Source of the DNA: Nitrospirota bacterium
Lineage (GTDB): Bacteria > Nitrospirota > Thermodesulfovibrionia > Thermodesulfovibrionales > Dissulfurispiraceae
NCBI GenBank assembly: GCA_009773415.1
Contig: WSNO01000032.1
Location: forward strand, 1 to 35,641
Reading direction: 5' to 3'
Length of the DNA: 35,641 bases
The notes beneath the pieces are model-generated. The model saw only the letters and a list, made by a program, of their open reading frames with translations. It did no database searches and was not told the DNA's origin. Numbering within the stretch: the first letter of the stretch is position 1; every line of letters begins with the position of its first letter. Positions 1,703 to 28,448 of this stretch are shown in pieces. Both the position numbers and the translations under genes were made by a program.

Positions 1703-3631
1703 TCAGCCTCTGAACAGAACTTCCCCCATATCCCTCGTGTCGTACCCGCCAAGATTTTCGACCCCCGCTTTGAACTCCGCATCTTCACCGATAATGTTCA
1801 ATAGAATCCGAATCTTTTCGCTCTCAAAAATGTCGGCAGGTATGGCAATGTCGTACCGCTCGTCCGCAACCGGGATGAAATCAAGTCCGAGCGCCTGTGC
1901 GGAGGAATACACAGCAAGCCCGGCATCGGCAAGACCGGTGAGAACCGCTGAGGCGACTGCCATGTGCGTGTACTCTTCCCGTTCGTATCCGGCAATATCC
2001 GCCGTCCTGATTCCGAGATCGCGGAGATGCTTGTCCAGGAGCATGCGTGTGCCGGACCCGGACTGCCGGTTGACAAAAACAACGTCTTGTCGTGCAAGAT
2101 CGGCAAAGTCCGCGATGTTTTTCGGATTTCCCGGCTTCACCAGCAACCCCTGCCTGCGGTAGACAAGATTGACCAGCACAGTCGGGCGATCGGAAAGAAG
2201 CCTCTTCAGGTACGGCACATTGTAATCGCCGGTCTCTTCATCGAGAAGATGCGTGCCGGCAATGTGCGCTTCGCCGCGCTTCAGAGCCATGAGCCCTCCC
2301 ATGGAGCCGACATGCGCCGACGAAAGCGACAGATGCGGACACCGCTGTTTTATCCTGTTTGCGAGCAGGTCGAGCGCGTTGTCATGGCTGCCGATGCAGA
2401 CGATGGTGTTCCGTATCGCCTCGCGGCTGCGCAAAAGCTGAATCGTAACCGGAGCCCCTGCCGGAACGCCTTCTGACTCTGCCGGGACTTTCAGAAATCC
2501 GTCTGCGCGCACAACCGACATGAGAAGCCCCGCGCCGCGACCGACCGGAGTTGCGATAAGCTTATCGCCGACCGCGCCGACCTTGACGCGCACGAATTCA
2601 TCAACCCCGAGCGGCGAAGAGAGCTGACGCGAAAGTACTGCCGGGACAGACTCCTCTTCCTCAACGGCCGTTCCAAGCAGATGGGATAGTACGGGTCGCA
2701 CGAAAAGCCGCATGGTCAGATATGCCGAAACCGGATACCCCGGTATGCCGAATACCGGCTTGCCCTGCACAATGCCGAACATAACCGGCTTGCCGGGCTT
2801 GATGGCAACGCTGTGAATAATCAGCTCGCCGAGCTCTGCTATCACCGCTGCGGTATAGTCTTCAGTGCCTTTTCCAGATCCGGCATTGAGAATGACAAGG
2901 TCAGCCTTGCCGAGCGCATCCGTCAGCGCCTGCCGGATGGATGCGGCGTCATCTCTGACAATCGGCATGATTATCGGCTCTGCACCGTATTCAACAGCCA
3001 TGCCGCCAAGAAGCGTGGCGTTGTATTCGATGATTTCGGGCGCTTCAGGAGCACGGTCGCGAACCGTTTCGGCATCGATCAGTTCCGTGCCCGTCGGAAT
3101 TACCGCAACACGCGGCGTGCGCCGCACCAGAATATCAAGCCGCCCGCTCGCAAGAAGCGCTCCGGCATCAACAGGACGCACCGCGTGGTTCTCCGGAATG
3201 ATCAGCTCTGTGGCAACGATGTCTTCCCCGATGACCCGGACGTGCTGGTAGGGCGTCACCGGGGCGTAAATCTCGATGCCGTTTCCCGCAACATTTACGT
3301 CCTCAATCATTATGACAGCGTCAAACCCAGGCGGAAGCGGATCGCCCGTGTCTGCGGAGACTGCGCCGCTCCCTATCTCCAGATGAAGGGGCTTTGTTTC
3401 GGAAGCGCCGAACGTATCGCGAAACCGGACGGCATACCCGTCCATTGCGGATGAATGATAGGCGGGAGAAGAGCATCGGGCAAAAACGGCCTCGGCGGTT
3501 ATGCGGCCAAGGGCTTGCTTCACCGCAACGGACTCAGAGTCGGTGCGGCCGATATTATGGTCATGCAAGCTCTGCCTGAGCAGGCTCAGTGCATCAACAA
3601 GGGTGAGGCTTTCGCGAAACACCTTTTTCAT
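1703..3631 (-). CDS. moeA: Molybdopterin molybdenumtransferase MoeA fused to periplasmic-binding-like domain
   Basis: The enzyme inserts molybdate or tungstate into adenylylated molybdopterin in the cytoplasm. Residues ~1-400 are MoeA: SSPAYHSSAMDGYAVR near residue 60, the molybdopterin-binding fold with PTGTELI and NAGSGKGTEDYT, and KPGKPVMFG/GIPGYPVSA. Residues ~412-642 form a PBP_like domain related to LysR-substrate and molybdate-binding proteins (GSHDNALDLL, NRQSGSGTRMLLD, HMAVASAV). It has no signal peptide, so it is probably an intracellular oxyanion- or ligand-sensing domain. Such fusions are known in archaea and anaerobic bacteria. The gene starts 42 bp after the ThiF-like gene and completes the AOR/MoaD/ThiF cofactor run. 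Start ATG 3631 follows a GAAAGG. Whether the metal is Mo or W cannot be told; the AOR neighbour favours W. Confidence 0.88.
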   Translation of the reverse strand: MKKVFRESLTLVDALSLLRQSLHDHNIGRTDSESVAVKQALGRITAEAVFARCSSPAYHSSAMDGYAVRFRDTFGASETKPLHLEIGSGAVSADTGDPLPPGFDAVIMIEDVNVAGNGIEIYAPVTPYQHVRVIGEDIVATELIIPENHAVRPVDAGALLASGRLDILVRRTPRVAVIPTGTELIDAETVRDRAPEAPEIIEYNATLLGGMAVEYGAEPIIMPIVRDDAASIRQALTDALGKADLVILNAGSGKGTEDYTAAVIAELGELIIHSVAIKPGKPVMFGIVQGKPVFGIPGYPVSAYLTMRLFVRPVLSHLLGTAVEEEESVPAVLSRQLSSPLGVDEFVRVKVGAVGDKLIATPVGRGAGLLMSVVRADGFLKVPAESEGVPAGAPVTIQLLRSREAIRNTIVCIGSHDNALDLLANRIKQRCPHLSLSSAHVGSMGGLMALKRGEAHIAGTHLLDEETGDYNVPYLKRLLSDRPTVLVNLVYRRQGLLVKPGNPKNIADFADLARQDVVFVNRQSGSGTRMLLDKHLRDLGIRTADIAGYEREEYTHMAVASAVLTGLADAGLAVYSSAQALGLDFIPVADERYDIAIPADIFESEKIRILLNIIGEDAEFKAGVENLGGYDTRDMGEVLFRG

Positions 3632-3673
3632 GGGGCAGCACCTTTCGTCGTCATAAACGTAGTCTGACTATAC

Positions 3674-4501
3674 TCAGCCCAGAGAACCGGCGTCAAACGA
3701 CATCTGCCGGAGATCGCAGAAGAATACGTTTCCCCAGGCCATATCGTCCTTGCCGAGCAAAATTCTGATTGTCCCGGCAACTTGCAGAGATGCAATAAAG
3801 GCGGGCGTAAACGAAGGATTGCCGAGCTGTTCATCTATTCCGGATTTCCCGCGACAGGCGCTCAGCCACTGCCCAAGACTGTTGCTGCCGGCGGCCTGCA
3901 TTGCGAACTGGCCGTACCAGCCGCCGATGGCGCCGTGGACAAACGGACGGCCAAGTGCGCTGCAGGCGGCAGCAAGCTCCGCTCTGGCGTCAAATGAATC
4001 GAGCGCATCAACGACGACGTCCGCCGGGCCGAGCAGTTCTGCCGCACGGCTCAGGCGGAACGCCTCGACATGCGCTGACACCAGCGTGGAGGGATTGATA
4101 TTTCGCAGCTCTTCAGCGATTACCTGCGCTTTCGGCAATCCAAGCGAACTGATGGTGCAGAAACGCTGACGATTCAGGTTGTGTTCGGCGAAGCTGTCGG
4201 GATCAATGCAAATCAGGCGTCCGACGCCGCAGCGGGCGAGCATTTCTGCACCATGGCCGCCCAGCCCCCCGCACCCGACGACAGCGACGCAGGAGCGGTG
4301 CAGCTTCAGCTGATCTTCAAGAGAAAGAAGATTCCGGTTCCGCTCGTAGCGCCGGGGGAGATACCCTGCGGCGAGAGCGGCGTCTTCAACCTCATGCAGG
4401 GAACATCCTCCTGCCATCATGGCCTGCTCTGCTGCGGCAAGCGAAATGAGTCCGCCGGACTGGTGCAGTTCGAAGAATTCACGAAGCGTGTCTCTTTCCA
4501 T
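3674..4501 (-). CDS. ThiF/MoeB/HesA-family adenylyltransferase
   Basis: A 275-residue E1-like enzyme expected to adenylate the C-terminal glycine of the MoaD-like protein encoded just upstream, activating it for sulfuration during molybdopterin synthesis. The nucleotide-binding loop VVGCGGLGG lies at residues ~75-82, Asp100 ends the next strand, the Arg-finger region is NLNRQ (108-112), and DALDSFDAR (165-173) matches the family. The CXXC pairs that bind zinc in E. coli MoeB are not seen, as in many HesA-like relatives. The first ~55 residues form an N-terminal extension before the Rossmann fold. The frame is open upstream of ATG 4501, but those codons lie inside moaD; 4501 leaves a 16-bp gap and is preferred. 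Confidence 0.85.
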   Translation of the reverse strand: MERDTLREFFELHQSGGLISLAAAEQAMMAGGCSLHEVEDAALAAGYLPRRYERNRNLLSLEDQLKLHRSCVAVVGCGGLGGHGAEMLARCGVGRLICIDPDSFAEHNLNRQRFCTISSLGLPKAQVIAEELRNINPSTLVSAHVEAFRLSRAAELLGPADVVVDALDSFDARAELAAACSALGRPFVHGAIGGWYGQFAMQAAGSNSLGQWLSACRGKSGIDEQLGNPSFTPAFIASLQVAGTIRILLGKDDMAWGNVFFCDLRQMSFDAGSLG

Positions 4502-4517
4502 GCGGAATCCCTCGCTC

Positions 4518-4742
4518 TCAACCGCCGCCGATCGGCGGAAAAATGCTGAGAGTGTCTCCGTCCGAAAGAGCCGTGCGGAGATCGGCATGGCGGCCGTTGA
4601 CAAAAATGATTGCGGCTTCGTCCGGAGGAATCGTAAGCATATCAATCATCTGCTGAACAGAAGTTCCAGATTCGGCATGCAGAACATCCTGCTCGAAACG
4701 ATCGGTGCGAAGGGTGGCGAATAGTTTTACAGTGATTTTCAT
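4518..4742 (-). CDS. moaD: MoaD/ThiS-like sulfur carrier protein
   Basis: A 74-residue ubiquitin-fold protein beginning MKITVKLFATLR and ending IFPPIGGG. The terminal Gly-Gly is the site of adenylation and thiocarboxylation, so it is the sulfur donor for molybdopterin or tungstopterin formation. It lies between AOR and the ThiF-like enzyme, the usual order in AOR-linked cofactor clusters. The start is fixed by the conserved N-terminus. Unusually, no Shine-Dalgarno precedes it; a GC-rich hairpin (4743-4764) abuts the start codon. Final gene symbol is by family; a dedicated AOR-specific paralogue is possible. Confidence 0.85.
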   Translation of the reverse strand: MKITVKLFATLRTDRFEQDVLHAESGTSVQQMIDMLTIPPDEAAIIFVNGRHADLRTALSDGDTLSIFPPIGGG

Positions 4743-4764
4743 GCGGGCACGGGGGGCAGCCCGC
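4743..4764 (-). other. GC-rich hairpin directly upstream of moaD start
   Basis: GCGGGC (4743-4748) pairs with GCCCGC (4759-4764), enclosing a G-rich loop, and touches the ATG. No AGGAGG-like site is present in the 58-bp AOR-moaD gap. The hairpin could restrict independent initiation so that moaD depends on coupling or a special initiation mode. That role is inference. Confidence 0.4.
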
Positions 4765-4800
4765 GACAGAATAATCCGGCGCGGACTGCCTCGGTCTGCT

Positions 4801-6537
4801 TTACCAGTTGAATACCCTGTCGAGGTCTTCGTCTTTTACATCAAAGGTCACCTGATGCGGCGCGAGCTTCTCGGTGGAAAAGAATCGCGGTAGCCGGTCG
4901 TGATCCTTCGTGAATCCGGCCCGGGCATTGAAATCGCGCTCCATGCTCAGGACGTTCTTTCCGAGATCCACTACGCCGTCGGCCGTAATGCTGACACCAT
5001 GGCATGCGCTGAGCATGTCCAGAAGCGACTGGAATGTTTCAGGCTGATCGAGTATCGCAAACGCAATGAATATGCACATGCCGGTAGAGTCGACCGCGGC
5101 GGTCGCGATCTGCAGATCGCGGGAAAGCTCAATCTGCCCGTCGCTTTTGAGGGGATCAACATATCCGCCGACTTTCAGAATGTTCGCCGTAACGGCATAC
5201 CCTGCGGTATGATCTGCGCCCATCGGCGAAGTCGCATACGTCACTCCGATGCCCTTGACTGCGCGCGGGTCATACGCCGGCATGGCCTGCCCCTTAACGA
5301 CCGGAACCCGCTCCACACCGAACACCTTTCCGGCTACCGCTGCGCCGCCGCCAAGGATGCGTCCGAGATAGGTTCCCTGTCCGACTTCCTTCACCATGGC
5401 GATTGCAGCCTCGGCGTCCCCGAATTTCGCGATGCCCGCCTCCATCGCAACCCCTATGGTCGCGCCCATCTCGATGGTATCGACCCCGATGTTGTCGTCG
5501 AGGAAATCAAGCATCGCTATCGCGTCAAGATCGTCAATGCCGCAGTTGCCGCCGTGAGACCAGACGGTTTCATACTCCGGCTGCTTGGTCAGAAAGTTTC
5601 CGTTTTTGTCATTATATGTTCCGGAGCAGCGGATGACACAGCCGCGATGGCAGCCGTGCGTAGGATTGGCGCCCCGCTTTTTTTCGAGTTCTGCAAGGGT
5701 TTCGCCGCTTATTTTCGACGCTCCGTCAAAGCTTCCCTGCTGAAAATTGAAGGTCGGATAGCCGCCCGCTTCGCTCATGATATTGGTCAGAACATTCGTG
5801 CCGTACGTCGGCAGGCCCTGTCCGGTGACCGGATGCTTCATCAGTCCTTCGACAAAACGTTTGTTGGCGTCTCTGAATTTTTCCGGATCTCTCGGTGTTC
5901 TGACCGGCATGCCGGTGTCGTCCAGAACTATCGCTTTTACGCCTTTTGCCCCCATGACCGCGCCGACGCCGCCCCTGCCGCAATGGCGTGTCGGACGCTG
6001 TTCCATGTCGGTGCAGGCTATGGACGCCGCATTCATCTTCATTTCTCCGGCAGGACCGATCGAAATGCAGCAGATCTTCTCGCCGAACTCCTGCTTCATC
6101 TTTGCGACGAGATCGTAATTGAGCATCATTTTAAGGCTGTTGTCGGCAGTTATGGCTACACCGTCTTTATGTATCAGAATCTTGTACAGATCGTCTCCGG
6201 CAGGCTTGCCTTCAATGACAATCGCCGCATACCCGAGCCGGGCAAGCACCTGCGCGGGCTGGCCCCCGGCGTTGGATTCCTTGATGCCGCCGGTCAGCGG
6301 GCTCTTGCAGCCGATTGACAGTCGCCCCGACATGGCGGCTATCGTGCCGCTCAGCAAACCGGGAGCGATGACCAATTTGTTCTCCGCGCCAAGCGGATGG
6401 CAGAGCGGCGGAACCTCTTGTGCAACAATCGCTGAAGTCATGGCGCGCCCGCCGAATCCCGCATATCCGCCCAGATCTGAAACAGTGCATTTCGGGCCGC
6501 CGGAAGAGCCCATATCGATGCGCAGAATCTTGTCCAC
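4801..6537 (-). CDS. Aldehyde:ferredoxin oxidoreductase (tungsten/molybdopterin AOR family)
   Basis: A 578-residue cytoplasmic enzyme that oxidises aldehydes to acids and reduces ferredoxin using a bis-pterin W (or Mo) cofactor and one [4Fe-4S] cluster. The N-terminus MDKILRIDMG, a GGYAGFGGRA stretch near residue 22-31, and RHCGRGGVGAVMGAKGVKAI (184-203) are typical pterin-binding segments. Candidate cluster ligands are Cys296, Cys300 and Cys304 (CX3CX3C), with a further Cys late in the chain (DSTGMC). Many characterised AORs have CX2CX3C, so the first spacing is one residue longer. The start is GTG 6537, six bases after a clear GGAGG; the frame continues upstream to 6666 only through the terminator region. 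It heads the AOR-moaD-thiF-moeA run. Substrate cannot be deduced. Confidence 0.88.
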   Translation of the reverse strand: MDKILRIDMGSSGGPKCTVSDLGGYAGFGGRAMTSAIVAQEVPPLCHPLGAENKLVIAPGLLSGTIAAMSGRLSIGCKSPLTGGIKESNAGGQPAQVLARLGYAAIVIEGKPAGDDLYKILIHKDGVAITADNSLKMMLNYDLVAKMKQEFGEKICCISIGPAGEMKMNAASIACTDMEQRPTRHCGRGGVGAVMGAKGVKAIVLDDTGMPVRTPRDPEKFRDANKRFVEGLMKHPVTGQGLPTYGTNVLTNIMSEAGGYPTFNFQQGSFDGASKISGETLAELEKKRGANPTHGCHRGCVIRCSGTYNDKNGNFLTKQPEYETVWSHGGNCGIDDLDAIAMLDFLDDNIGVDTIEMGATIGVAMEAGIAKFGDAEAAIAMVKEVGQGTYLGRILGGGAAVAGKVFGVERVPVVKGQAMPAYDPRAVKGIGVTYATSPMGADHTAGYAVTANILKVGGYVDPLKSDGQIELSRDLQIATAAVDSTGMCIFIAFAILDQPETFQSLLDMLSACHGVSITADGVVDLGKNVLSMERDFNARAGFTKDHDRLPRFFSTEKLAPHQVTFDVKDEDLDRVFNW

Positions 6538-6576
6538 TATAAACCTCCGATGAAGAAATTCGCTCTGCTCCTGACA

Positions 6577-6605
6577 ATTATAAAGCAATAGTATCACATT
6601 GAAGG
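6577..6605 (-). promoter_or_regulatory. Candidate sigma70-type promoter for the AOR operon
   Basis: On the minus strand a perfect TATAAT lies at 6582-6577, about 40 bases before the GTG start and just downstream of the terminator of the preceding gene. A weak -35 (CTTCAA-like) sits ~16-17 bp further up. The perfect -10 and its position between a terminator and a start codon are the support; the -35 is poor. Confidence 0.5.
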
Positions 6606-6630
6606 GGAAAACGAAAGACGGCAGATTATC

Positions 6631-6664
6631 AAAAAAAGCCCCCCACGCTATACGCGCGGGGGGC
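6631..6664 (-). terminator. Rho-independent terminator after the small Cys-rich gene
   Basis: GCCCCCC (6638-6644) pairs with GGGGGGC (6658-6664), extended by three more pairs after one mismatch around a TATAC/GTATA loop. On the minus strand the stem is followed by seven T residues (6637-6631). It lies 20 bp after the stop of the gene at 6685-6927. Confidence 0.9.
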
Positions 6665-6684
6665 ATCTGGCTACAGAGATTTGC

Positions 6685-10027: not shown

Positions 10028-11089
10028 TCACGGAACTTCGGGAACCCTGTCAGTCATGTCTTCGCCGGTCAGCGCCTCTGCCAGAAACGCTTTCAGGTCG
10101 GCTTTTTCATCCGGGGTTAACCCAATCGGCCTGATGGCTGTATTCCCCTTTCCTCCACCCTGATCAAAAAACTCGACAACCTCGTCAAGCGTGGAAAAAA
10201 TGCCGTTGTGCATGTAGGGCGCCGTTTTTGCCAACTCGCGAAGCGTCGGCGTGCGGAAAGCTTTCCAGTCCTTTTTCTCTTTTGTTATCAGGTAGCGGCC
10301 CGGATCTTCATTGAGCGTGCGGTAGTCTGCATAGTGATAGACCTTTGCGACAAATCTGCGGGTGGCAGTAATTCTGGGGTCGCTCTGGTGTTCCGGGTTT
10401 TCAGGGATATTGAGAGCATGAAACTTGTCATCCGACAACAGCACCCCGTCATGACATTCAGAGCATTTCCCCTTGCCGGTAAACAGCTGATATCCTTTCC
10501 GGGCAGACGGCGACAGAGCGGCGAGATCTCCCTTCAGGTAGCGGTCAATCGGGGCGTTGATTGAAACAAGTGTGCGCTGGTATGACGCAAGCGCCATCGC
10601 GATGCGCTCACGGCTGACGTCTCCGCCGAAGATGTTCTGAAATGCCTGTGAGTACTGAGGAACAACCCGGATCTTTTCTTCCAGATAATCGAGGTTCAGG
10701 TTCATCTCAAATGCAGACATCACCGGAAAGAGCGCCTGATCTTCCAGGCTTGCCGACCTGCCGTCATAGAAGAGGTTTTTAAAGAGCCCGATATTCACAA
10801 GGGTCGGCGCGTTCCGCCAGTTGCGCGTCGTGGGGTAGCTCAGGGATATCTCCTGACCGTCGGTAAATGCCATGTCGGGGATATGACAGGTCGCGCAGCT
10901 CATGGTGCCGTCTCCCGAAAGCCGCCGGTCGAAGAAGAGCTGTTTGCCGAGTTCTATCTTTTCCGGCGTCTGCGGATTGGACTGCGGAACCGGAATACCC
11001 CTGAACGGCTCCAGAGAACCGGCAAAAGCCGATAGAGCGACACATGTCCCCAACACAGCGGTCAATAGCAAGAAAACGATTTTTCTCAT
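10028..11089 (-). CDS. Di-heme cytochrome c peroxidase (CcpA/MauG family)
   Basis: A 353-residue periplasmic protein that would reduce H2O2 with electrons from small c-type cytochromes. A signal peptide covers residues 1-23 (to SAFA). Two haem-binding CXXCH sites are present, CATCH in the N-terminal half and CSECH in the C-terminal half, with the family segments FFDRRLSGDGTMSCATCH, FYDGRSASLEDQALFPV and YMHNGIFSTLDEVVEFF around them. Length matches the family. Start ATG 11089 follows GGAGGGG. It lies 42 bp downstream of the selenocysteine DsbA-like gene, and the two look co-transcribed. It may act as a peroxide scavenger or, as in MauG relatives, oxidise another protein. Confidence 0.9.
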   Translation of the reverse strand: MRKIVFLLLTAVLGTCVALSAFAGSLEPFRGIPVPQSNPQTPEKIELGKQLFFDRRLSGDGTMSCATCHIPDMAFTDGQEISLSYPTTRNWRNAPTLVNIGLFKNLFYDGRSASLEDQALFPVMSAFEMNLNLDYLEEKIRVVPQYSQAFQNIFGGDVSRERIAMALASYQRTLVSINAPIDRYLKGDLAALSPSARKGYQLFTGKGKCSECHDGVLLSDDKFHALNIPENPEHQSDPRITATRRFVAKVYHYADYRTLNEDPGRYLITKEKKDWKAFRTPTLRELAKTAPYMHNGIFSTLDEVVEFFDQGGGKGNTAIRPIGLTPDEKADLKAFLAEALTGEDMTDRVPEVP

Positions 11090-11131: not shown

Positions 11132-11716
11132 CTATCTTTTCAACTCATCGGTCACGATTTTCTTCAAATACTCATACGGCACATTACCGACTACCCTGCG
11201 GCCGTTGATGAAAAAGCTCGGCGTATTGTAGAGATCGAGATCCGTTCCGAGCTTCAGGTCGCGATTGATATGAACGGCATGCTTCTTCGTCTCGAGTGCC
11301 TGCTGAAATTTCCCGGCGTCAAGCCCGAGCTCCTGCGCATAGCGGAGGAGACTGGGCCGGTCAAGCTGCGGCGAGCGCTTCAGCAGAAGATGATGCATTT
11401 CATAAAACTTGCCCTGCTCATGAGCCGCCAGCGCCGCTTCCGCGGAGACAAATGCAAAATCCCGATATTTGTAGGGAAGAAATTTAACGACAAGGCGAAC
11501 TTTCCCCCTATACTCTTTCATGATGCGCTCGACAGCCGGACTGGCCGCCACGCAATGCGGTCATTGATAGTCGATAAACTCTACAATTGTGACAGGGGCT
11601 TTCTCAGGACCGACGGACGGAGAATTCTCAAGAGGAATTGCGAATCGTTTCACTTCGGCAAATGCTCCCCCGACAAAGAGAAACAGCAGGCAGAGAATGC
11701 AGGATACGTGTCTCAT
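11132..11716 (-). CDS. DsbA-like selenoprotein, active site U-P-H-C (TGA read as Sec52)
   Basis: A single 194-residue periplasmic thioredoxin-fold protein interrupted by an in-frame TGA at 11563-11561. Upstream of it is a signal peptide (MRHVSCILCL...GGAFA) and a DsbA-type N-terminus ending VTIVEFIDYQ. Immediately after it is P-H-C-V, so the TGA stands exactly where the first Cys of the CPHC active site belongs. The frame continues without shift through a normal DsbA-like helical domain to the cis-Pro segment YNTPSFFINGR and a proper C-terminus. A 7-bp hairpin with an AGUCC loop (11531-11549) follows the TGA at SECIS distance. The neighbouring formate dehydrogenase is a second selenoprotein, so the host decodes UGA as Sec. 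Conventional calls would split this into an upstream 90-codon ORF (ending at the TGA) and a 139-residue ORF. ATG 11716 is chosen as start because the signal peptide begins there. Expected role: thiol oxidation, reduction or isomerisation in the periplasm. Confidence 0.85.
11531..11549 (-). promoter_or_regulatory. SECIS-like hairpin in the DsbA-like selenoprotein mRNA
   Basis: Minus strand GGCGGCC pairs with GGCTGTC (7 bp, two G-U) around the loop AGUCC. The stem starts 11 nt after the UGA, placing the loop ~18 nt downstream, within the range for bacterial SELB-binding elements. The AGUC loop resembles that of E. coli fdnG as recalled. Folding was done by eye. Confidence 0.65.
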
Positions 11717-11774: not shown

Positions 11775-11813
11775 AAAAGACGGGGCATCGAGCCTCCTGA
11801 AGCTCGATGCCCC
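11775..11813 (-). terminator. Rho-independent terminator after fdnI
   Basis: A perfect 12-bp stem, GGGGCATCGAGC (11782-11793) with GCTCGATGCCCC (11802-11813), has an 8-nt loop. On the minus strand it is followed by GTCTTTTAT. It lies 26 bp past the stop of the cytochrome b subunit and ends the formate dehydrogenase operon, separating it from the DsbA-like gene, which then needs read-through or its own promoter in the ~60 bp left. No good promoter is seen there. Confidence 0.85.
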
Positions 11814-11839: not shown

Positions 11840-12469
11840 TTAAGCTGAATGTCCACCTTTGCCTGATTCAAGTTCGGCAATCCACTTCGGATGTTTCTTT
11901 TTTGCCATCCAGTACGGAACCTTCCCGCCGATCATGATCTGAAGAGTTCCTGGATTTGCTATCGTGCCGAGATAGAGGTGAAGCGGAATGAATATCCCGA
12001 TCATGATAAAGCTCACGTTATGGATGAAAAACGACAGGAGAACCCATTGCTTGTTTTCAGGGATAAGCCACATCACGAATCCTGTGACAGAAATGGCGAT
12101 TCCTGCCGTAAGAACCATCAGGTACGCGAACTTCTGGCCGGTATTCAGCTTGCCCATCGGCGGCACTTTCACTTTATGACTTAGGTATCCGCCGCCGACA
12201 CTGAGCCAGCGAACGTCATCTCCGTCAAACCGCAGTGCATGTTTCAGCCAATGCGCGGCGCTCAGGAAAAGCGCAGCAATAAAAACTACTCCGAGCCAGT
12301 TATGAATGGTTTTCATGCTGTTGAAGCCGCCAAAGGCTGCGCCGATCGCCTCTATCTTGAAGAGAAATCCGAAGCCGGAGATGATCAGCAGAATACAGCT
12401 TATGGCGAGCGACCAGTGACAGAGGCGCTCAAAACCGGTGGCCATGGTAATCATGTCGTTTTTATTCAT
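11840..12469 (-). CDS. fdnI: Formate dehydrogenase gamma subunit, cytochrome b556-type
   Basis: A 209-residue integral membrane di-haem cytochrome b that takes electrons from the FdnH-like subunit to the quinone pool. Four hydrophobic helices are visible. Likely haem-ligand histidines occur in ERLCHWSLAIS, TIHNWLGVVF, SAAHWLKHAL and PLHLYLG. Its start overlaps the end of the Fe-S subunit gene by 8 bp, and it is the last gene before a strong terminator. Length agrees with FdnI/FdoI. Confident at family level; the exact electron acceptor is inferred. Confidence 0.9.
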   Translation of the reverse strand: MNKNDMITMATGFERLCHWSLAISCILLIISGFGFLFKIEAIGAAFGGFNSMKTIHNWLGVVFIAALFLSAAHWLKHALRFDGDDVRWLSVGGGYLSHKVKVPPMGKLNTGQKFAYLMVLTAGIAISVTGFVMWLIPENKQWVLLSFFIHNVSFIMIGIFIPLHLYLGTIANPGTLQIMIGGKVPYWMAKKKHPKWIAELESGKGGHSA

Positions 12470-13223
12470 GGTCGTCGTCCTCCTTCACTTTGTGCGGCCC
12501 CACAGCGACATAATGAACAACGGCTGCAGCGGCAACGCCGCCGATACCGATATACGACAGCGGCTTCAGCACCTTGTGCCAGAAGACCAGCATTTCGCTG
12601 ATCTGCGGCTTCTCATCGTAGCCATAAAGCTTCGGCCCGTCCTTGAAGGCATAGAGAGCGCCGAGACCGCCGAGGTCCGCCTGCCCGTAAACCTTTTGAT
12701 AACCGGCCTTCTGCGCCTTCGCGATCATCTCGGTCCTGTCGCCGTACGAAATCGCACCGGTAGGGCATGTTTTTGCACAAGCAGGGGCCATTTTATTGGC
12801 GATACGGTCAACGCAGAGATTACATTTTGAACATTTGCCCTTGTCGTCATAGCGCGGCACATTGAACGGACAAGCCGCAAGGCAGAGCTTGCAGCCGATG
12901 CACTTGTCCTTATTGGACGCCACGGCGCCTTCCGGTGTCCGGTAGAGCGCTCCGGGGGACGGGCATATCTGCATGCAGCCAGCCTCTTCGCAGTGCATGC
13001 AGCGCTGATTCACAAACAGCCACCGCAACGGTTCCTTGTCTGAGGGCGCTTCGACAAAGCGAATCCGGTTGTACAGACTCGGTGTCAGGTCGCCCGGATT
13101 TTCATAGCCGCCCCGGTTTTTCGTCTTTTCGCCGGGAAGCTGGTTCCATGACTTGCATGCCACCTGGCAGGCCCGGCATCCGATACATAATTCAGGAGAT
13201 ACCAATAATCCCATTCGTGCCAT
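12462..13223 (-). CDS. fdnH: Formate dehydrogenase beta subunit, four-cluster Fe-S protein
   Basis: A 253-residue electron-transfer subunit. Four ferredoxin-type cysteine groups are seen in order: CIGCRACQVAC, CMHCEEAGCMQIC, CIGCKLCLAAC and CSKCNLC with a later C-X3-C (ACAKTC). A C-terminal hydrophobic segment (PLSYIGIGGVAAAAVVHYVAV, residues ~220-240) would anchor it in the membrane, as in FdnH. It starts 4 bp after the catalytic subunit stop, so the pair is translationally coupled, and it overlaps fdnI. It passes electrons from the catalytic subunit to the cytochrome b. Confidence 0.92.
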   Translation of the reverse strand: MARMGLLVSPELCIGCRACQVACKSWNQLPGEKTKNRGGYENPGDLTPSLYNRIRFVEAPSDKEPLRWLFVNQRCMHCEEAGCMQICPSPGALYRTPEGAVASNKDKCIGCKLCLAACPFNVPRYDDKGKCSKCNLCVDRIANKMAPACAKTCPTGAISYGDRTEMIAKAQKAGYQKVYGQADLGGLGALYAFKDGPKLYGYDEKPQISEMLVFWHKVLKPLSYIGIGGVAAAAVVHYVAVGPHKVKEDDDHE

Positions 13224-13227
13224 GGTC

Positions 13228-16200
13228 TTACCCCCTCGCCTTTTCGATATTGACCATAAACGCCTTGGACTCCGGAATCATGACGTTCGGATCTCCAATG
13301 GTCGGCGTAAGCAGATTTGCGCTCTCGCCGCCGCTGCCGTCGGCCGGGTATTGCCAGCCGAAGTGCCACGGGATGCCGACCTGATGAATAGTGGTGTTCA
13401 TGACTTTAAACGGTTTGTATCGATCGGTGACAACGGCGACCGCCCAGAGGCTGCCCCGCGCCGACGATACAGTCACCTTTTCGCCGTTGCCGATGCCTTT
13501 TTCCTTCGCAAGTTCCTTGCTCAACTCCACAAACATCTGCGGCTGCGTTTCCAGAAGCCACGACTTGTGGCGCGTCATGACGCCCGTCTGCCAGTGCTCG
13601 GTCACGCGATATGTCGAGCAGACATACGGGAAGCGGGTGTCGCACGACTTGAATACATCCTCTTCGAGGCTTCCCTCTTTACCGTAAAAGAGCTTGATCG
13701 TCGGATTAATCCGGTGCTTTGCCTGCATCGGGTTTTCCTGAAGGGGACATTCCAGCGGTTCATAGTGCTCGGGGAACGGCCCGTCGGCCAGACCCGGTCC
13801 GAACAGAGCACCTACACCGTCAGGTCTCATGATAAACGGCAGTTTGCCCGCTTTTTCATCAGCGAGCGGAGGTGCCGGTCCGTCAGGCACATCGCCTTCC
13901 CAGACGCCGGGCTTGTTTGTCGCGGGATTCAGTTTGGTCGGATTCCACTTGATGAGCGCCCGCTTCGGATCCCACGGCTGACCCTGCGGATTTACGGATG
14001 CGCGGTTGTAGACGATGCGGCGGTTTAACGGCCAGGTCCAGGCCCAGTTTGCATACAGGCCGAGACCGGTCGGGTCATCTTTGCCGCGCCGCGCCATCAT
14101 GTTGATGATCTTGCCGTCTTTCTGCGTATAGCTTCCGGAATAGATCCAGTTGCCGCAGGATGTTGTTCCGTCAGCCTGCAGGCTGACGAAGTTCACGCAC
14201 AACTCACCCTTCTTGCCGATTAGTTTCGGAGGAGTCTGCGTTTTGTCGTACACGTCGGCAAGATAATAGCCGTTAATTTCGCGGGCAACAAGGTGCGGAT
14301 TCACATGCTTGATCTTGCCGTCCTTGTCCTTTTCTCCATAGTTCCAGGTAAGGTTGACTATCGGCGCCGGGAATTTACCGCCCTCTTTCTGATAGAGTCT
14401 TTTGACCCGGAAGTATAGCTCGTTGAGGATTTCCATATCCGCCAAGGATTGTCCAACCGGTTCTATCGCCTTGTAGCGCCACTGGACGAGGCGTCCTGAG
14501 TTTGAAACACTTCCCTCTTTTTCGACCGATGAACAGCACGGCAGCAGGAAGACCTCGGTCTGAATGTCAGCCGGCTTCATGCCGGGGCCTTTCCAGAACG
14601 ATCCGGTTTCATTGTCGTACAGGTTGACGTTCACCATCCACTTTAGTTTGCTGAGCGCTGTGCGCGTCTTGTTGGAGTTCGCCCCCGAACATGCCGGGTT
14701 CTGTCCCCACGCAAAAAAGCCTTCGAACTTGCCCTTGTACATTTCATCGAACATATTCAGCCATGAACAGTTCATGCCCTCGTCGAGTTTCGGCATCCAT
14801 GCATAGGCAAAATCGTTCTCTTTGTGTGCTGCATCACCGTATCGTGCCTTGAGATGACTGACGAGATACTTCGGCCGGTTGCCCCACCAGTTCACACTTC
14901 TCGGTTCCTTGGTCTTCGGAGTCATCTTGTCGATATACGCTGCGAGATCGACGAGAGAAGCGGTCGGAACCGGCATATAGCCGGGAATAATGTGGAAAAG
15001 CAGTCCGGCGTCGGTGGAGCCCTGAACATTGGATTCACCGCGGAGTGCATTGACGCCTCCTCCGGCCATGCCGACATTGCCGAGCATAAGCTGAATCATG
15101 GAGAATGCGCGGACGTTCTGAACGCCGACGGTATGCTGGGTCCAGCCCATTGCATAACATACGGTCGCAACTTTGTTCGGCTTTCCGGTGGAGCCGATAG
15201 CCTTGTATACCTCAAGCAGACTCTCTTTCGGCGTTCCGGTGATAGCTGAAACCTTATCGACAGTATAGCGATTGAAATGCTTGCGCATGAGCTGAAATAC
15301 GCAGTTCGGATCCTTCAGCGTAAGATCCCTCTTCGGAACGCCCTGCTCGTCCATCTGGAACGTCCAGGTCTTTTTGTCATACTTGCGGGTCTTTGCATCG
15401 TAGCCCGAAAATACGCCTTCAAGCTGTCCGGGCATTTTAAATTCAGGATTGACGAGAAACGATGCGTTCGTATAGGTGACTACATACTCGCGGAAATACA
15501 GATTGTTGTCATAAATATACTTGATCATGCCGCCCAGAAAGGCGATGTCGGTGCCGGAGCGGAGCGGAGCATAGATGTCGGCTTTTGCTGCTGTTTGTGT
15601 ATAACGGGGATCAACGACAACCAGCTTTGCTCCGCGCTGCTCTTTCGCTCTCATGATCCATTTCATCGACAGTGGGTGATTTGCTGCGGGGTTTCCTCCC
15701 ATGCAGAGGATAACGTCAGAATTCTTCAGGTCGATCCAGTGATTCGTCATTGCGCCGCGTCCGTACGACTCTGCCAGAGCCGCTACAGTAGCGCTGTGTC
15801 ATATTCGGGCCTGATGTTCTATCCAGGTCAGCCCCCACGAACGCATCAGCTTCTGCGTGAGGTAGCATTCCTCATTGTCCATGGCAGCGCTGCCGATGTG
15901 GGCAATGCCGTCGCACCGGTTGACGGTAAATTCCTTCAGGATTTCTGTTTCGCTGCCGTCAGGCTGTTTTTCCTTGATCTTCGATTTTGAGACGGTCTTG
16001 AATGACCGATCACGGGAGTCCTTCACCTTGCGGGCGATCTGATCAAATGCCCAGTCCCATTCGACCTCTTTCCACTCAGACGCACCCGCTGCCCGGTACT
16101 TCGGCTTGGTAAGTCTGGCCGGATTGTTCGCCATCTGAAAGAGAGACGCCCCTTTGGGACAAAGAGCTCCTTCATTGATGGGGTGCTCCGCATCTCCTTC

Positions 16201-16410
16201 TACGTTAATGACCTTGCCGTCCTTGGTGTAGACGAGGATACCGCAACCTACAGAACAATAGGGGCAGACGGTCGTCGTAACCTTGGCGTTTTTGATTCTC
16301 AGTTCGGTGGCTTTGGCATCGGCATCCGCCGATTTTACGCCGCCTGCCACAGAACTCAGTGCGAGGGTGCCTCCCGTGAATTTCAGGAAGTCTCGTCTCG
16401 ATACATCCAT
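13228..16410 (-). CDS. fdnG: Formate dehydrogenase catalytic subunit, selenoprotein (TGA read as Sec204)
   Basis: A 1060-residue molybdopterin (Mo or W) formate dehydrogenase. The N-terminus SRRDFLKFTGG is a twin-arginine export signal, so the enzyme works on the periplasmic side. A [4Fe-4S] site is formed by Cys49, Cys52, Cys56 and Cys84. The in-frame TGA at 15801-15799 lies in EHQARI-U-HSATVA, exactly where the metal-ligating selenocysteine of FdnG/FdoG belongs. The frame continues uninterrupted into GRGAMTNHWIDLKNSDV and on to a normal C-terminus. A SECIS-like hairpin (15766-15782) follows. Standard calling would split it into 203- and 840-residue ORFs. Start ATG 16410 has AGGAGG. It heads fdnGHI, behind a sigma54-like promoter and next to an NtrC-type two-component system. 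Confidence 0.95.
15766..15782 (-). promoter_or_regulatory. SECIS-like hairpin in fdnG
   Basis: Minus strand CGGCTCT pairs with AGAGTCG (7 bp, one G-U) around GGC, starting 16 nt after the UGA. Distance and position fit a bacterial SECIS. The loop differs from that in the DsbA-like gene. By-eye folding. Confidence 0.55.
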
Positions 16411-23522: not shown

Positions 23523-23951
23523 TCACTTCTGCGAGAGCGGCCCAAGCCGCTTCAACCGCACAACCATCTCTTTAACAAGCCCGGCAAAGCGCTTGCCTTC
23601 AGTCGCGGACACGAAATCGAATCGGCATCTCTCTTCCGGTATGCCAAGCTGCTTCAGACTCGAGAGCAGTATGCGATGGCGCTTCATCGCAATCAGGTTT
23701 CCGCTCCGGTAGTGGCAGTCACCGGGATGACACGCAAGTATTATAACGCCATCGGCGCCTTTTTTATACGCGTCGAGAACGAGGGCCGGATCAACGCGGC
23801 CGCTGCACATAACCTTTACAATCAAAATGCCTGACGGATATTCCTCACGCTCCAAGCCGGCATGATCAGCGCCTGCGTATGAACACCATTGACACAGGAA
23901 TGCCACAACCAAAGGCTCAAACGCTTTCGGCTTACTCTTCAAGGCTCTCAA
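23523..23951 (-). CDS. mvhD: MvhD/FlpD-family [2Fe-2S] electron-transfer subunit
   Basis: A 142-residue protein that links the hydrogenase to HdrA. Its cysteine motifs match MvhD: FLCQWCSYAGAD (~20-30), VMCSGRVDP (~48), and LACHPGDCHYRSGN (~73-86). Position 1 of the cluster is Cys, not selenocysteine as in some methanogens. The apparent start is TTG 23951, 20 bp inside the end of hdrA and behind AAAGGGG; a second TTG lies 9 bases further on. It is encoded separately rather than fused to HdrA. Confidence 0.9.
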   Translation of the reverse strand: MRALKSKPKAFEPLVVAFLCQWCSYAGADHAGLEREEYPSGILIVKVMCSGRVDPALVLDAYKKGADGVIILACHPGDCHYRSGNLIAMKRHRILLSSLKQLGIPEERCRFDFVSATEGKRFAGLVKEMVVRLKRLGPLSQK

Positions 23952-25890
23952 GCGCCCCTTTCATTTCGGCCTTCAACGCCTCGGAAGAAAAAATTCCTCC
24001 ATGCACAGCACCCGCCGGACATGCGGCCACGCAGATGCCGCATCCGGTGCAGAGCAGTTCACGAAGCACTGTTTTCTTTCCATTTACGCTTGGCTCTATC
24101 GCCTGCGCCGGACAGAGCCGGACGCAGAGCATGCAGCCGGAGCATCGCACCGGATCAATCCGCACTCCCGCAGGCAGGACGTCAAGAGCAGCGCCTTCGC
24201 GAAGGTCTGCAAGCAAGCGGCCTGCGGCCGCCCGTCCCTGTTCTATCGCTGTTGCGATATCGACGGGAGCGCGGCAGGCGCCGGCAGTCGCAATGCCGCG
24301 ACCGGCAGGCTCATTGCCGCAGGCGTCCATTCCCCCGTCGCGAAAAAACCCGAATTCGTCGGTTCCGACACTGAACGCTTCTGCGAGCGCCATCGCGTCA
24401 TCCCCGGGAACAATAGCCGGGCAGAGAACCACCATATCAACCGGCATCCGGCGAACCGTGCCGGCGGCGTCCTCAAAAGAAAGCTTTTTGACAGTGCCCG
24501 ACGAAACGATTTTCAGTGACGACAGTGAGCGATATCTGTATGATTTGGCGTTCCGATCATGAACGGCCTGCTGATAGAGGCGCTGCGCTGACTGTCCGGG
24601 CAGGCACCACTCTTTCACAAGGTGGATGATTTTCACCTCCGGCAGGCGGTCACGAATCATCGCCCGGTATTTCAGCGCATACCGGCAGCAGATCGTTGAG
24701 CAATAAGGCTTGTGCATTTCATCAAGGCTGCCGACGCAATGAACGATTGCAATACGTGCGGGAATCCTGCGTGACGTTGTCCGGATTTTGCCTTTCAGCG
24801 GTCCATCACTCGCCAGCATCCGTTCAAATGCCTGACTCGTCAGCACGTCCGGCAGCTTTCCCTGCCCAAGTCCCGGCAGAGAAGAATGATCCAGCACCGA
24901 TGCCCCGGTCGCAAGAATGACAGCTCCGGCTTTTCGCTGATGCATCTTGGCAGAGTCATCGAATAGTATGGCGCCGTCCGCAGGACAGACATCGCGACAT
25001 GCACTGCATGATCTGCCTTTCCCGCGCAGGCAGGCTTTTTCTTCAATATGAGGGACGTGCGGCAGCGCTCCGGGAGATGCGAAATCAATAGCCTTTCGTC
25101 TGCCGAGGCCGCAATTGAATACTGACGGGGCAGACGCAGGGCAGGCGTTCACGCATTCACCGCAGCCGATGCAGCGAGAACTGTCGACAAATCGCGGCGA
25201 CTGCTCCACAGTTATCTCGTAGTTCCCGAACGAACCCCGCACCGAACGGACCTCAGCCATGGTGAGCAGTTCGACCGTGCCCGGCAGTTCGCCGAAAAGA
25301 ATTGCATCAAGAAACGGCTGCATCAGGCAGGGTCCGCAGGATCTGTCCGGAAAGATTTCATCGAACATCATCGGCTTGCCGCCGGGCGACGCTGATTTCT
25401 CCACAAGAACAACGTTCCGACCTGCCTGAGCAAGCGTAAATGCGGCGCTCAGGCCGGCAGGCCCTGCTCCGACAACCATGACATCGGCGCAGACAGGAAC
25501 CGTCATTCTCTCCATCGGCTGGTGATGCGCCGCCCGAATAAGTGCCAGAGCCTTCCGTGTTGCAGCCGTTCGCTCAGACGTCACCCACGCAACCTGCTCC
25601 CGTATGTTCGCGATGTGCATAAGGTAGGGGTTTATGCCTGCTGCCAGAAGCGCTTTTTGAAATACCTGTTCGTGGTCACGAGGAGAACACCCCGCAAAAA
25701 CAATGCGTTCCGGGTGCTCGTGCATGAGATCCTGAGCAATCATGGCAACGCCTTCTTCGCTGCAACTCATCGGAAACGTCTTCACATAGGCAACGTCGGG
25801 CGCCCCGTCGAGCGCTCTGCTGATGCCGGCAAAGTTCAGCCTGGCCGACAAAAGATCGTTACAGGAGCAGAGGTAAACCCCGGTTTTCAT
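23932..25890 (-). CDS. hdrA: HdrA-like flavin/iron-sulfur subunit of heterodisulfide reductase-type complex
   Basis: A 652-residue cytoplasmic FAD protein. The N-terminal part has paired Cys segments (LCSCN near 8-10, MSCSEEG near 43, FAGCSPRDHEQ near 68). The FAD-binding fold VMVVGAGPAGLSAAFTLAQAG is near 138-158. [4Fe-4S] motifs follow: CIGCGECVNACP, CSACRDVCP, and a C-terminal 2x[4Fe-4S] ferredoxin (CSGCMLCVRLCP and CTGCGICVAACP). This is the HdrA that performs flavin-based electron bifurcation or confurcation in methanogens. ATG 25890 overlaps the hydrogenase stop as ATGA. No hdrB or hdrC is present nearby, so its partner for the second electron branch must lie elsewhere or differ. Confidence 0.92.
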   Translation of the reverse strand: MKTGVYLCSCNDLLSARLNFAGISRALDGAPDVAYVKTFPMSCSEEGVAMIAQDLMHEHPERIVFAGCSPRDHEQVFQKALLAAGINPYLMHIANIREQVAWVTSERTAATRKALALIRAAHHQPMERMTVPVCADVMVVGAGPAGLSAAFTLAQAGRNVVLVEKSASPGGKPMMFDEIFPDRSCGPCLMQPFLDAILFGELPGTVELLTMAEVRSVRGSFGNYEITVEQSPRFVDSSRCIGCGECVNACPASAPSVFNCGLGRRKAIDFASPGALPHVPHIEEKACLRGKGRSCSACRDVCPADGAILFDDSAKMHQRKAGAVILATGASVLDHSSLPGLGQGKLPDVLTSQAFERMLASDGPLKGKIRTTSRRIPARIAIVHCVGSLDEMHKPYCSTICCRYALKYRAMIRDRLPEVKIIHLVKEWCLPGQSAQRLYQQAVHDRNAKSYRYRSLSSLKIVSSGTVKKLSFEDAAGTVRRMPVDMVVLCPAIVPGDDAMALAEAFSVGTDEFGFFRDGGMDACGNEPAGRGIATAGACRAPVDIATAIEQGRAAAGRLLADLREGAALDVLPAGVRIDPVRCSGCMLCVRLCPAQAIEPSVNGKKTVLRELLCTGCGICVAACPAGAVHGGIFSSEALKAEMKGALESLEE

Positions 25891-27365
25891 CGCCGGATCT
25901 CCCGGATCGCCCTGCCGTCTCCTGCCCTGATAACCACACTGACCATGCTGCCGTCGGCATGCGTGGCACATGCAAGACAGGGATCGTACAGCCGGAATGC
26001 CATCTCAATCCTGTTCAGAAGCCCTTCCTCTACTATCACGCCGCGCCTTATGTAGCGCTGAGCCGCGCGTTTGACGGACATGGCGATAGGTGCGTGATTG
26101 TTTGTTGTGCCTGAGATAATATTTACCCGTGTTATCACGCCCTTTTCATCAACCGAATAATCATGGATCAGTGTCCCGCGCGGGGCTTCCACACAGCCGA
26201 CGCCTGCCTGAAGCAGTTTTTTTCGGGGAATGTTTCTGATATCGGACGACATGATGTCATCGTCAGACGCAAGTTCATGCATGCGCTCCGCGGCATACAG
26301 AAGCTCTATCAGACGGGCCCAATGTGTTGCAAGCCGGTGGTGAACGGGCTGATATCGTCCGCCGCGCCGCCGTGAACCGAAATACGCATGGAGGCTTTCG
26401 TACTGCTCCTGGGCACGCGGCGTAGCCATGCCGTCCGCGACATTCAGGCGGGCAAGAGGCGTCGCGCAATAGACGCCGCTTGCAGCGCCGTCTATCAGTC
26501 CTTTCCAGCCGACAGCACGAAGGTACGGAAACTTGAGATACGTCCACGGCTCGGCGTGTTCGGCGATGTGGTCAACGTAATCCTTCGGCTGATAGCGCGC
26601 AAATTCCGCACCGTCAGGGTCGACGATTCGCAACGTCCCGTCATACAGGCTCACCGTATTGCGCGCATCAACCGTTCCCATCGAATAGGTTCGATGAATG
26701 AAGCATTCATCATGCAGCATCTCCGAGAAGCGGCTGTCCCGCAGCACCAGCCGTTCAAAAAGGTCGAGCGCAAAGCGGGCAAACTCAACATTCTGCAGTG
26801 CAGTATCGCGAACGAGTTCAGCATCCTCCTTCGTTACCTGCCGGCTCCATCCGCCCGGCAATCCGGCGACGAGATGAATCCCGCGTCCGCCCAGACGTTC
26901 GAGTACCTGGTGATTGCGCTTTCTGCACGCAATGAACCGCATGACGGCCTTGCGGCCAAGTTTCGCCATCACGCCGAACAGATTCCGCTCTTCCGGCGAT
27001 GCGTCCGCGCCGACAATCAAATCAGGACCGCCAAGGGCAAAGAAATGGGTAGCATGATCGTTCACAAAAAATGCCGTATAGACAAGTTCCCGGATTTTTT
27101 GCGCGGTCTCTGTCGGCATCACGCCGAAAATGACATCGAGCGCCTTGACGGAGGCAAGATGATGCGCCTCCGGACAGATGCCGCAGATCCTGCTCGTGAG
27201 AATCGGCATTTCCTCTGCAAGACGACCGACGCAAAAGCGTTCAAACCCTCGGAATTCGGGCACCTGAAAATACGCGTTTGCAACATCTCCGCTGTCATCC
27301 AGGAAGATCTCGATGCGGCCGTGCCCTTCCAGCCGCGTGATGGGATCAATCGATATACGCTTCAC
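25887..27365 (-). CDS. mvhA: [NiFe]-hydrogenase large subunit, MvhA-like (group 3c type)
   Basis: A 492-residue catalytic subunit with both pairs of nickel ligands intact: SRICGICPEAHH near residue 58-70 and DPCLACATH near the C-terminus. It should activate H2 in the cytoplasm and pass electrons through the small subunit and MvhD to HdrA. After the H of DPCLACATH there are only ~25 residues, ending AIREIRR, so the usual C-terminal peptide removed at maturation is not obvious. The start is GTG 27365, overlapping the small-subunit stop as GTGA. Assignment to group 3c rests on the mvhD/hdrA neighbours. Confidence 0.92.
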   Translation of the reverse strand: MKRISIDPITRLEGHGRIEIFLDDSGDVANAYFQVPEFRGFERFCVGRLAEEMPILTSRICGICPEAHHLASVKALDVIFGVMPTETAQKIRELVYTAFFVNDHATHFFALGGPDLIVGADASPEERNLFGVMAKLGRKAVMRFIACRKRNHQVLERLGGRGIHLVAGLPGGWSRQVTKEDAELVRDTALQNVEFARFALDLFERLVLRDSRFSEMLHDECFIHRTYSMGTVDARNTVSLYDGTLRIVDPDGAEFARYQPKDYVDHIAEHAEPWTYLKFPYLRAVGWKGLIDGAASGVYCATPLARLNVADGMATPRAQEQYESLHAYFGSRRRGGRYQPVHHRLATHWARLIELLYAAERMHELASDDDIMSSDIRNIPRKKLLQAGVGCVEAPRGTLIHDYSVDEKGVITRVNIISGTTNNHAPIAMSVKRAAQRYIRRGVIVEEGLLNRIEMAFRLYDPCLACATHADGSMVSVVIRAGDGRAIREIRR

Positions 27366-28369
27366 CGCTGTCTCACAAGCAGACCGGCAAGCAGGGAGTC
27401 GGCGAGGCTGTATTTCCAGAAGGTTCCGACATAATCAGGCAGCGTATTGATTACAGCATCGATTCGGTCGTATATTTCCCTTGAAGATAAGCCCTCGGCA
27501 TGCCCGATATCGATCACTGAAGCAAGAGCCGAAATCATGGCCGCCCCCTGGTCTGATACCCCTTCAGGTCTGCCGTAACAGCCTGAACACGGAATATTCG
27601 CCGCCGGGCAGCGACAACCGCAGCCGTCCCGTGTCGCAATCCCCATGCAGAGGATGCCCTGCTCAATGAGGCAAAGTGAGGGGTCAGTCGTTTTTTCATG
27701 GATGCGGTAAAACCTGCTTGCGTTTTTTCTGCCGCGCTCCCGCGGACACTCAGCGCAGACCGTTGACGAGCCCGCACCAATAACGCTGCCGGCCGGCGGC
27801 ATTTCATCCTCTCCCGAAATCATCCGAAAGAGTTCAGCGACGCGGTGCGGCTCAGGAGGGCAGCCGGGAAGAAAGTACTCTACCGGCACGTTCTGCGCGA
27901 GCGTTGTCAGACGATCATTCCAAAGAGGCAGGTGCAGAGTTCCTTCTTTGACCTGTGTCGACGATTTTGGAGTGATGCGACGCGCATTTGCGGTGGTACT
28001 GTTTTCGAGAAAACTGCTCCGGATATGTTCTTGCGGAGACCGGAGATTTGCCAGGCCCGGAATGCAGCCTTCGTGGGCGCAGGAGCCGAATGCTATTAGC
28101 GTACGCGACTTTTGCCGCAGCAGAGACGCCATTGCTCTGTCGTCGTTCGTTCGGATGCCTCCGTTAAAGAGTGCGACGGCGATGTCCCCGTCCGGCAACG
28201 CTTCGAGGTCGGCTATTTTGGCATCGACAAGGCAGGGGCAGAAAGCGACTTCAAAAGAGTCGTTCAGCGCAAAGAGACGTTCATCGAGAGAGAGGATGGC
28301 CATTTCGCAGCCGCCGCAGGATGCGGCCCAATACATGGCAAGTTTCGGTCTGGCTGAACCTCGGCGCAT
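27362..28369 (-). CDS. mvhG: [NiFe]-hydrogenase small subunit, MvhG-like
   Basis: A 335-residue Fe-S subunit. It has the proximal-cluster motif SCGGCEMAIL (~17-26), GSCAHEGC, and LPGCPPEP, then an Fe-S-rich C-terminal part (CAECPRERG, CLIEQGILCMGIATRDGCGCRCP, CSGCYG). It lacks a twin-arginine signal, so the enzyme is cytoplasmic. ATG 28369 is chosen because homology begins there (RPKLAMYWAASCGGCE). The open frame runs a further 147 bases upstream toward phoR without homology. No clear ribosome site or promoter was found in the 79 bp after phoR, so read-through from the pho genes is possible. Confidence 0.88.
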   Translation of the reverse strand: MRRGSARPKLAMYWAASCGGCEMAILSLDERLFALNDSFEVAFCPCLVDAKIADLEALPDGDIAVALFNGGIRTNDDRAMASLLRQKSRTLIAFGSCAHEGCIPGLANLRSPQEHIRSSFLENSTTANARRITPKSSTQVKEGTLHLPLWNDRLTTLAQNVPVEYFLPGCPPEPHRVAELFRMISGEDEMPPAGSVIGAGSSTVCAECPRERGRKNASRFYRIHEKTTDPSLCLIEQGILCMGIATRDGCGCRCPAANIPCSGCYGRPEGVSDQGAAMISALASVIDIGHAEGLSSREIYDRIDAVINTLPDYVGTFWKYSLADSLLAGLLVRQR

Positions 28370-28448
28370 GACTGATGATACCACCGAAATCGTTTTTTTT
28401 GCCAAAATATCAAAGCCGTCGGTCCCAAGGCACTTCCCCTTAAAAATA

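Follow-up and report, generated by a model that had tools for sequence, protein, structure and literature searches.

Reports of selenoproteins of the DsbA-like UxxC type date from 2005 and 2006, and current inventories include them (PMC1088965, PMC1794560, PMC9312934, PMC13188914); in the accessible part of one of these sources, the functions of such selenoprotein groups are called largely uncharacterised (PMC13188914). An independent line of work concerns the formate dehydrogenase (FDH) FdhAB of Desulfovibrio vulgaris. According to the accessible sections of the papers on this enzyme, it has an allosteric surface disulfide, C845–C872, with M405 being part of the mechanism; when the disulfide is closed, FdhAB is nearly inactive and air-stable, and when it is reduced, the enzyme is active and air-sensitive (PMC11134731, PMC13397495, PMC11323313). 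In the same sections, the C872A variant is described as the active form (PMC11134731, PMC11323313), and reduction of the switch is achieved in vitro by DTT, the cellular reductant being unnamed (PMC11134731, PMC13397495, PMC11323313).

We analyzed a stretch of 35,641 nucleotides (hereafter, the window) from the genome of a Nitrospirota bacterium. The gene dsbA(U), encoding a DsbA-like selenoprotein of 194 aa, was located at 11132..11716 on the minus strand. Translation from 11716 to 11132 with TGA read as selenocysteine (Sec, U) gave 194 residues with a single in-frame TGA, codon 52 (11561..11563, minus strand), in the motif D-Y-Q-U-P-H-C-V. The protein possessed a signal peptide (MRHVSCILCLLFLFVGGAFA/EV), the active site U52-P-H-C55, and the Thr-Pro segment N-T165-P166-S-F-F-I-N-G. 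The Pfam domain Thioredoxin_4 spanned residues 31–189 of the joined protein with 96.7 bits (cut-off of 23.2, E-value of 2e-27), and DSBA was also detected (75.6 bits, cut-off of 25.6, E-value of 5.6e-21). A sequence-only reading had placed a DsbA-like selenoprotein at 11132–11716 without naming the strand; the coordinates were correct and the gene belongs to the minus strand, while the plus-strand reading of this interval was meaningless. Its description of the gene was borne out as well: a single Pfam domain across the joined residues makes both sides of the TGA one DsbA-like protein, a signal peptide lies upstream of the TGA and a Thr-Pro segment downstream, and the gene is split by gene callers, as mechanical ORF calling broke it into 11833–11561 and 11551–11132.

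A search of 60 related genomes returned 22 close matches to DsbA(U) with 54–67% identity (the window aside), each with one in-frame TGA. When each species was represented by one genome, a scan yielded 80 loci with 81 homologous places, mostly from Nitrospirota and Desulfobulbales; cultivated carriers among them were Desulfoprunum benzoelyticum DSM 28570 (L096) and Desulfopila aestuarii DSM 18488 (L111). The codon aligned with U52 was TGA in all 81 places, well outside what chance would give, and Cys was not found at this codon in any of the 81 places of the orthologue group, which shared the motif [LIV]-D-[YF]-Q-U-[PTA]-H-C. Within the order, 63 of 176 genomes had a DsbA(U) match at E ≤ 1e-60, with the TGA in-frame in all matches listed. 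The next nearest relatives, with 25–47% identity, belonged to other subfamilies and had U-P-[YF]-C or C-P-[YF]-C; in Cys homologues, the first Cys of CXXC aligned with U52. Thus, the claim that the TGA replaces the first Cys of a CPHC-type motif was correct, and the proposed comparison at position 52 revealed aligned residues, the orthologues themselves having Sec (81/81). Misreading of TGC as TGA, which had been named as a possible refutation, is excluded by the conservation of the TGA among orthologues; the group was always Sec in our sample, and, therefore, both read errors and pseudogenes are excluded.

Several further genes of this kind were observed. Tandem DsbA(U) genes, the second with U-T-H-C in place of U-P-H-C, were found at locus L067 (8001–9263) and also at L044. 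A second subfamily of DsbA-like selenoproteins, of about 290 aa and with U-P-Y-C, was present in Nitrospirota (loci L281, L282, L288, L292–L295, L297, L299, and L300), its Cys relatives (C-P-Y-C) being encoded in other genomes; at L281, two U-P-Y-C copies were located near each other.

The window's own genome assembly was 2.46 Mb in length, consisted of 61 contigs, and was 100% complete. It encoded tRNA-Sec (selC, anticodon tca), selA (614 bits), selB (345 bits), and selD (333 bits), the last of which itself contained an in-frame TGA. All four genes for which a check had been suggested were therefore found, and, together with the Sec TGA of the FDH alpha subunit upstream of dsbA(U), they lead to the expectation that UGA is decoded as Sec in this organism.

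A bacterial SECIS hairpin was predicted at 11524..11554 (minus strand; UGCGU-GGCGGCC-[AGUCC]-GGCUGUC-GA-GCGCA) with the apical loop at 11542–11538. Among 89 distinct sequences, the hairpin extended over positions of approximately +12 to +30 counted from the UGA, with the loop 18 nt after the UGA. The loop was GGUCC, and the G at loop position 2 was invariant in the 89 sequences; the window, with AGUCC, was the sole sequence in which the loop began with A. Codons +5 to +9 after the UGA showed almost no variation of their third bases in DsbA(U) sequences: fourfold third positions of these codons deviated from background by 1.0–2.1 bits, the maximum being 0.57 among the tested positions that lie beyond the hairpin. 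Gly at codon +7 was GGT in 83 of 88 cases, while GGT made up approximately 22% of the Gly codons counted in the same genes. Compensatory changes were evident at stem pair 15–27, both members of which are third codon positions (GC 82, GU 2, AU 2, CG 1, UA 1). Two stem pairs were weak (17–25 paired in 64% of sequences and 14–28 in 72%). In 37% of sequences, the real 21-nt hairpin ranked among the top 5% of its synonymous variants, compared to 2–7% for six control windows in the same genes. The minimum free energy of the 45 nt after the UGA alone gave a weak signal (mean z of -1.1), and an Rfam scan of the window at gathering scores detected no match. SelB would read the UGA of dsbA(U) as Sec, directed by this hairpin a few bases downstream.

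We conclude that dsbA(U) almost certainly encodes a selenoprotein. The alternatives, namely a pseudogene, an error of sequencing, or a pair of genes divided by a true stop, would account for the split of the open frame, the only observation in their favor, and we regard them as extremely improbable in view of the TGA in all homologous places, the SECIS with frozen third positions, the complete set of sel genes, and the conservation of the protein on both sides of the TGA.

An AlphaFold2 model of DsbA(U), built with 14 sequences, had a mean pLDDT of 92.5. The model represented a thioredoxin fold with a helical insert, in which a helix starts at residue 53, T165-P166 precedes a strand, and Sec occupies the place of the nucleophilic Cys. 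T165-P166 matches the usual cis-Pro loop of the family, and the cis form is expected. The nearest solved folds were BdbD (Z of 23.8), Wolbachia alpha-DsbA2, 3gyk from Silicibacter pomeroyi, and ScsC, all with Z values of 22–24; on the basis of the model, DsbA(U) is, therefore, a DsbA-type protein. These four proteins share the DsbA fold and the place of the active site with DsbA(U) at 22–34% identity; however, they are thiol (Cys) proteins, and we know of no FDH link for any of them. The nearest NCBIfam model was NF041057, the Rcas_1661 family thioredoxin-like (seleno)lipoprotein, with 80.3 bits; this falls far short of the 190 bits set as cut-off, so DsbA(U), of 194 aa and with no evident lipobox, is not a member.

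The genes surrounding dsbA(U) form a conserved operon of FDH alpha, beta, and membrane subunits, DsbA(U), a di-haem peroxidase, and often FdhE. In the window, the minus strand encodes the FDH-N type alpha subunit (13228..16410), the 4Fe-4S beta subunit (12462..13223), the cytochrome b gamma subunit (TIGR01583; 11840..12469), and, as the next gene downstream of dsbA(U), a di-haem cytochrome c peroxidase/CCP_MauG family protein (10028..11089). The placement beside formate dehydrogenase and a cytochrome c peroxidase, noted from the sequence, proved to be a feature of an operon conserved in two phyla. A CCP_MauG di-haem gene was located directly downstream of dsbA(U) in 76 of 81 loci (the window and 80 others); FDH alpha was found on the same strand in 60, FDH beta in 55, and an FdhE-like gene in 35 of the 81 loci, the genes missing from these counts being partly explained by contig ends. 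A MoeA-like gene followed FdhE in several loci. Next to DsbA(U), the membrane subunit of FDH was a cytochrome b (FdnI type) in some loci and of the NrfD type in others; thus, DsbA(U) and the peroxidase remain paired beside either of two FDH kinds. The peroxidase was present in 63 of 68 FDH loci linked to DsbA(U) and in none of 59 unlinked ones. At L082, L131, and L145, the DsbA(U)–peroxidase pair was located apart from FDH; the apparent neighbors at L082 and L131 (chemotaxis protein, diguanylate cyclase, leucyl-tRNA synthetase, and holA) are unrelated genes. A strong terminator-like hairpin with a 14 bp stem and a T-rich tail was identified in the gap between FDH gamma and dsbA(U) (11782..11813, minus strand), so that, judging from the sequence, the pair may be transcribed separately from FDH in the window.

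The neighboring peroxidase contained a CCP_MauG domain, in common with MauG, MbnH, and bacterial cytochrome c peroxidase, and two CXXCH motifs. It scored 235 bits with the MauG model (TIGR03791, cut-off of 444) and 219 bits with the MbnH model (TIGR04039, cut-off of 363); being below both cut-offs, it can be named to the superfamily only.

The FDH alpha subunit had a Tat-type signal and was itself a selenoprotein: U204 (TGA at 15801–15799) corresponds to the known Sec position, and the ORF list splits the gene at 15799. A strong hairpin followed this UGA too. Alignment with the structurally solved D. vulgaris sequence showed that C888 (13747..13749, minus strand), C923 (13642..13644, minus strand), and M421 are the equivalents of C845, C872, and M405, respectively. 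By this alignment, the window FDH is a member of the subclass with redox-switch residues. None of the 80 DsbA(U)-linked FDHs tested at first lacked either switch Cys, and E. coli FdnG had neither of them. The hypothesis connecting DsbA(U) with the FDH switch was written down ahead of control testing.

The core set for the control comparison included 128 distinct FDHs with at least 55% identity to the window FDH, mainly from Nitrospirota, together with the Desulfobulbales loci of the per-species scan, many of them in draft MAGs; the 55% limit excluded divergent FDH paralogues (below approximately 47% identity), which lack the Cys pair and occur in genomes with DsbA(U). Both Cys were retained in 87 of 87 FDHs from genomes with DsbA(U), linked or not, and in 22 of 41 FDHs from genomes without it, 19 of the 41 having lost one or both (Fisher test, 1.1e-11, kinship ignored). 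Every FDH with lost Cys came from a genome without a DsbA(U) match. When mapped onto the tree of FDHs, the loss corresponded to between 7 (supported branches) and 11 changes, and a kinship-aware comparison of independent pairs gave 5.6 pairs changing the same way versus 0 opposite, with a median p of 0.03. A first test with 122 FDHs had given p of about 0.06; genomes were then added, a choice made after that result. The unbiased scan of alignment columns, run after this addition, is the better evidence. Here, C923 was ranked first of 1013 FDH columns for association with DsbA(U) (p of 5e-11, kinship ignored) and kept this place when the ranking took phylogeny into account (5.5 pairs the same way versus 0 opposite); C888 deviated in 0 of 87 FDHs with DsbA(U) versus 9 of 41 without it. 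At the level of sequences, the link between DsbA(U) and the switch Cys is a correlation only, and, since 22 of 41 FDHs keep the pair without DsbA(U), the pair does not need it. Two FDHs of the window's genus, in its nearest genome (L177 and L178; 90% and 77% identical), had the Cys pair and no DsbA(U) match; both are on short contigs, and, therefore, an assembly gap is possible.

Periplasmic DsbA(U) and the di-haem peroxidase would thus make up a two-gene module on the operon of a respiratory, periplasm-facing FDH. In the reading that we prefer, DsbA(U) would perform thiol/selenol–disulfide exchange with the surface pair C888/C923 of FDH, most likely reducing the disulfide so that the resting, O2-protected enzyme becomes active again; electrons would be supplied by a CcdA-type membrane reductase, and the peroxidase would remove H2O2 nearby. 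That DsbA(U) is the selenol–disulfide partner of the switch, probably its reductant, is in our estimation about as probable as the opposite. The proposal that this Sec-only protein, whose gene accompanies those of FDH and a di-haem peroxidase in Nitrospirota and Desulfobulbales, is a dedicated operator of the FDH redox switch is more tentative, its probability falling slightly short of even. A CcdA-type membrane reductase was encoded in the genome; we failed to find a match to DsbB in the genome, where a divergent oxidase could be missed, and a match to VKOR was spurious, being located inside a fumarate/succinate dehydrogenase-like membrane subunit. For these reasons, reduction is preferred, and the gene content leans towards this direction. 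The view taken in the sequence-only reading, that Sec may suit reductase or peroxide chemistry more than plain oxidation, is likewise tentative. Reduction is also preferred because the loss of a reductant would favor FDHs without the second Cys, comparable to the active C872A variant of D. vulgaris. A dipeptide of the C-P-H-C type, which U-P-H-C resembles, is characteristic of DsbA proteins that act as oxidants, and this counts against a reductase role. Selenols react fast with peroxide. In view of these two properties and of the peroxidase next door, it is conceivable that peroxide or O2 oxidises the selenol of DsbA(U), which in turn oxidises the FDH Cys pair to give the protected state; the co-loss evidence applies to this direction too. 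We nevertheless consider it rather improbable, as DsbB was not found, the sole VKOR match was spurious, and FDH would be under no pressure to drop a Cys once an oxidant is lost, but would be so once a reductant is lost.

The main competitor to a role on the FDH switch is that DsbA(U) serves the adjacent di-haem peroxidase and not FDH, either by reducing the CXXCH thiols for haem attachment (CcmG/ResA-like) or in joint peroxide defence of the oxygen-sensitive FDH. The two genes are adjacent in most loci and stay together even where FDH is elsewhere; since the peroxidase tracks DsbA(U) more strictly than FDH does and loci free of FDH exist, the actual partner may be the peroxidase. By itself, however, this explanation gives no account of an FDH cysteine as the best DsbA(U)-tracking column, and haem attachment is needed by all c-type cytochromes, not by one; we hold it to be unlikely, though less so than the oxidising direction. 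Sec-decoding bacteria commonly possess thioredoxin-fold selenoproteins with UxxC, and DsbA(U) could also be a general periplasmic thiol–disulfide oxidoreductase that lacks a particular partner in FDH, the grouping merely reflecting selenium-dependent anaerobic metabolism. The Sec-only orthologue group, the operon conserved across two phyla, and the specific co-variation with one FDH residue all argue against this, and it appears quite improbable.

Two other regions of the minus strand were inspected by sequence look only. The presence in the region 1703–6666 of genes for a MoeA-like protein with an extra domain, a ThiF/MoeB-like protein, and an aldehyde ferredoxin oxidoreductase-like protein suggests a molybdenum/tungsten cofactor neighborhood. 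The region 23523–28516 encoded an HdrA-like iron-sulfur flavoprotein and NiFe hydrogenase-like subunits, a possible electron-bifurcating cluster.

If DsbA(U) is indeed a dedicated operator of the switch, it sets the disulfide state of FDH and couples periplasmic redox stress to formate/CO2 metabolism. Owing to its switch, FdhAB of D. vulgaris, an oxygen-sensitive CO2 reductase of very high activity, can withstand air; with a conserved, operon-encoded selenoprotein that tracks the switch Cys, the question of what sets the switch in cells becomes directly testable. Such a role would also give a biological function to one of the listed, uncharacterised DsbA-like selenoproteins and make DsbA(U) a practical candidate activator for FDHs used in CO2 reduction. 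The open-access literature yielded no description of a Sec-only, FDH-linked DsbA group and none of a protein that reduces the FDH switch in cells, an absence that is weak evidence.

DsbA(U) belongs to an already listed selenoprotein family and is no new kind of protein; the novelty appears to be in its operon context. The DsbA-like selenoprotein (form 1, PF01323, UxxC) and the DsbG-like one (pfam13462, UxxC) share with DsbA(U) the Sec in the first position of the CXXC-type motif, and DSBA and Thioredoxin_4 are over the Pfam cut-offs in DsbA(U) as in these listed proteins, the criteria of prediction being of a similar kind. In their accessible parts, the selenoproteome lists give no operon, partner, or substrate, whereas the DsbA(U) group, always Sec in our sample, is located in an FDH operon. 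The closely related and structurally solved FdhAB of D. vulgaris has all three switch residues in common with the window FDH alpha; in contrast to its reduction by DTT in vitro, as given in the accessible text on that enzyme, the operon of the window itself encodes a candidate reductant of the switch.
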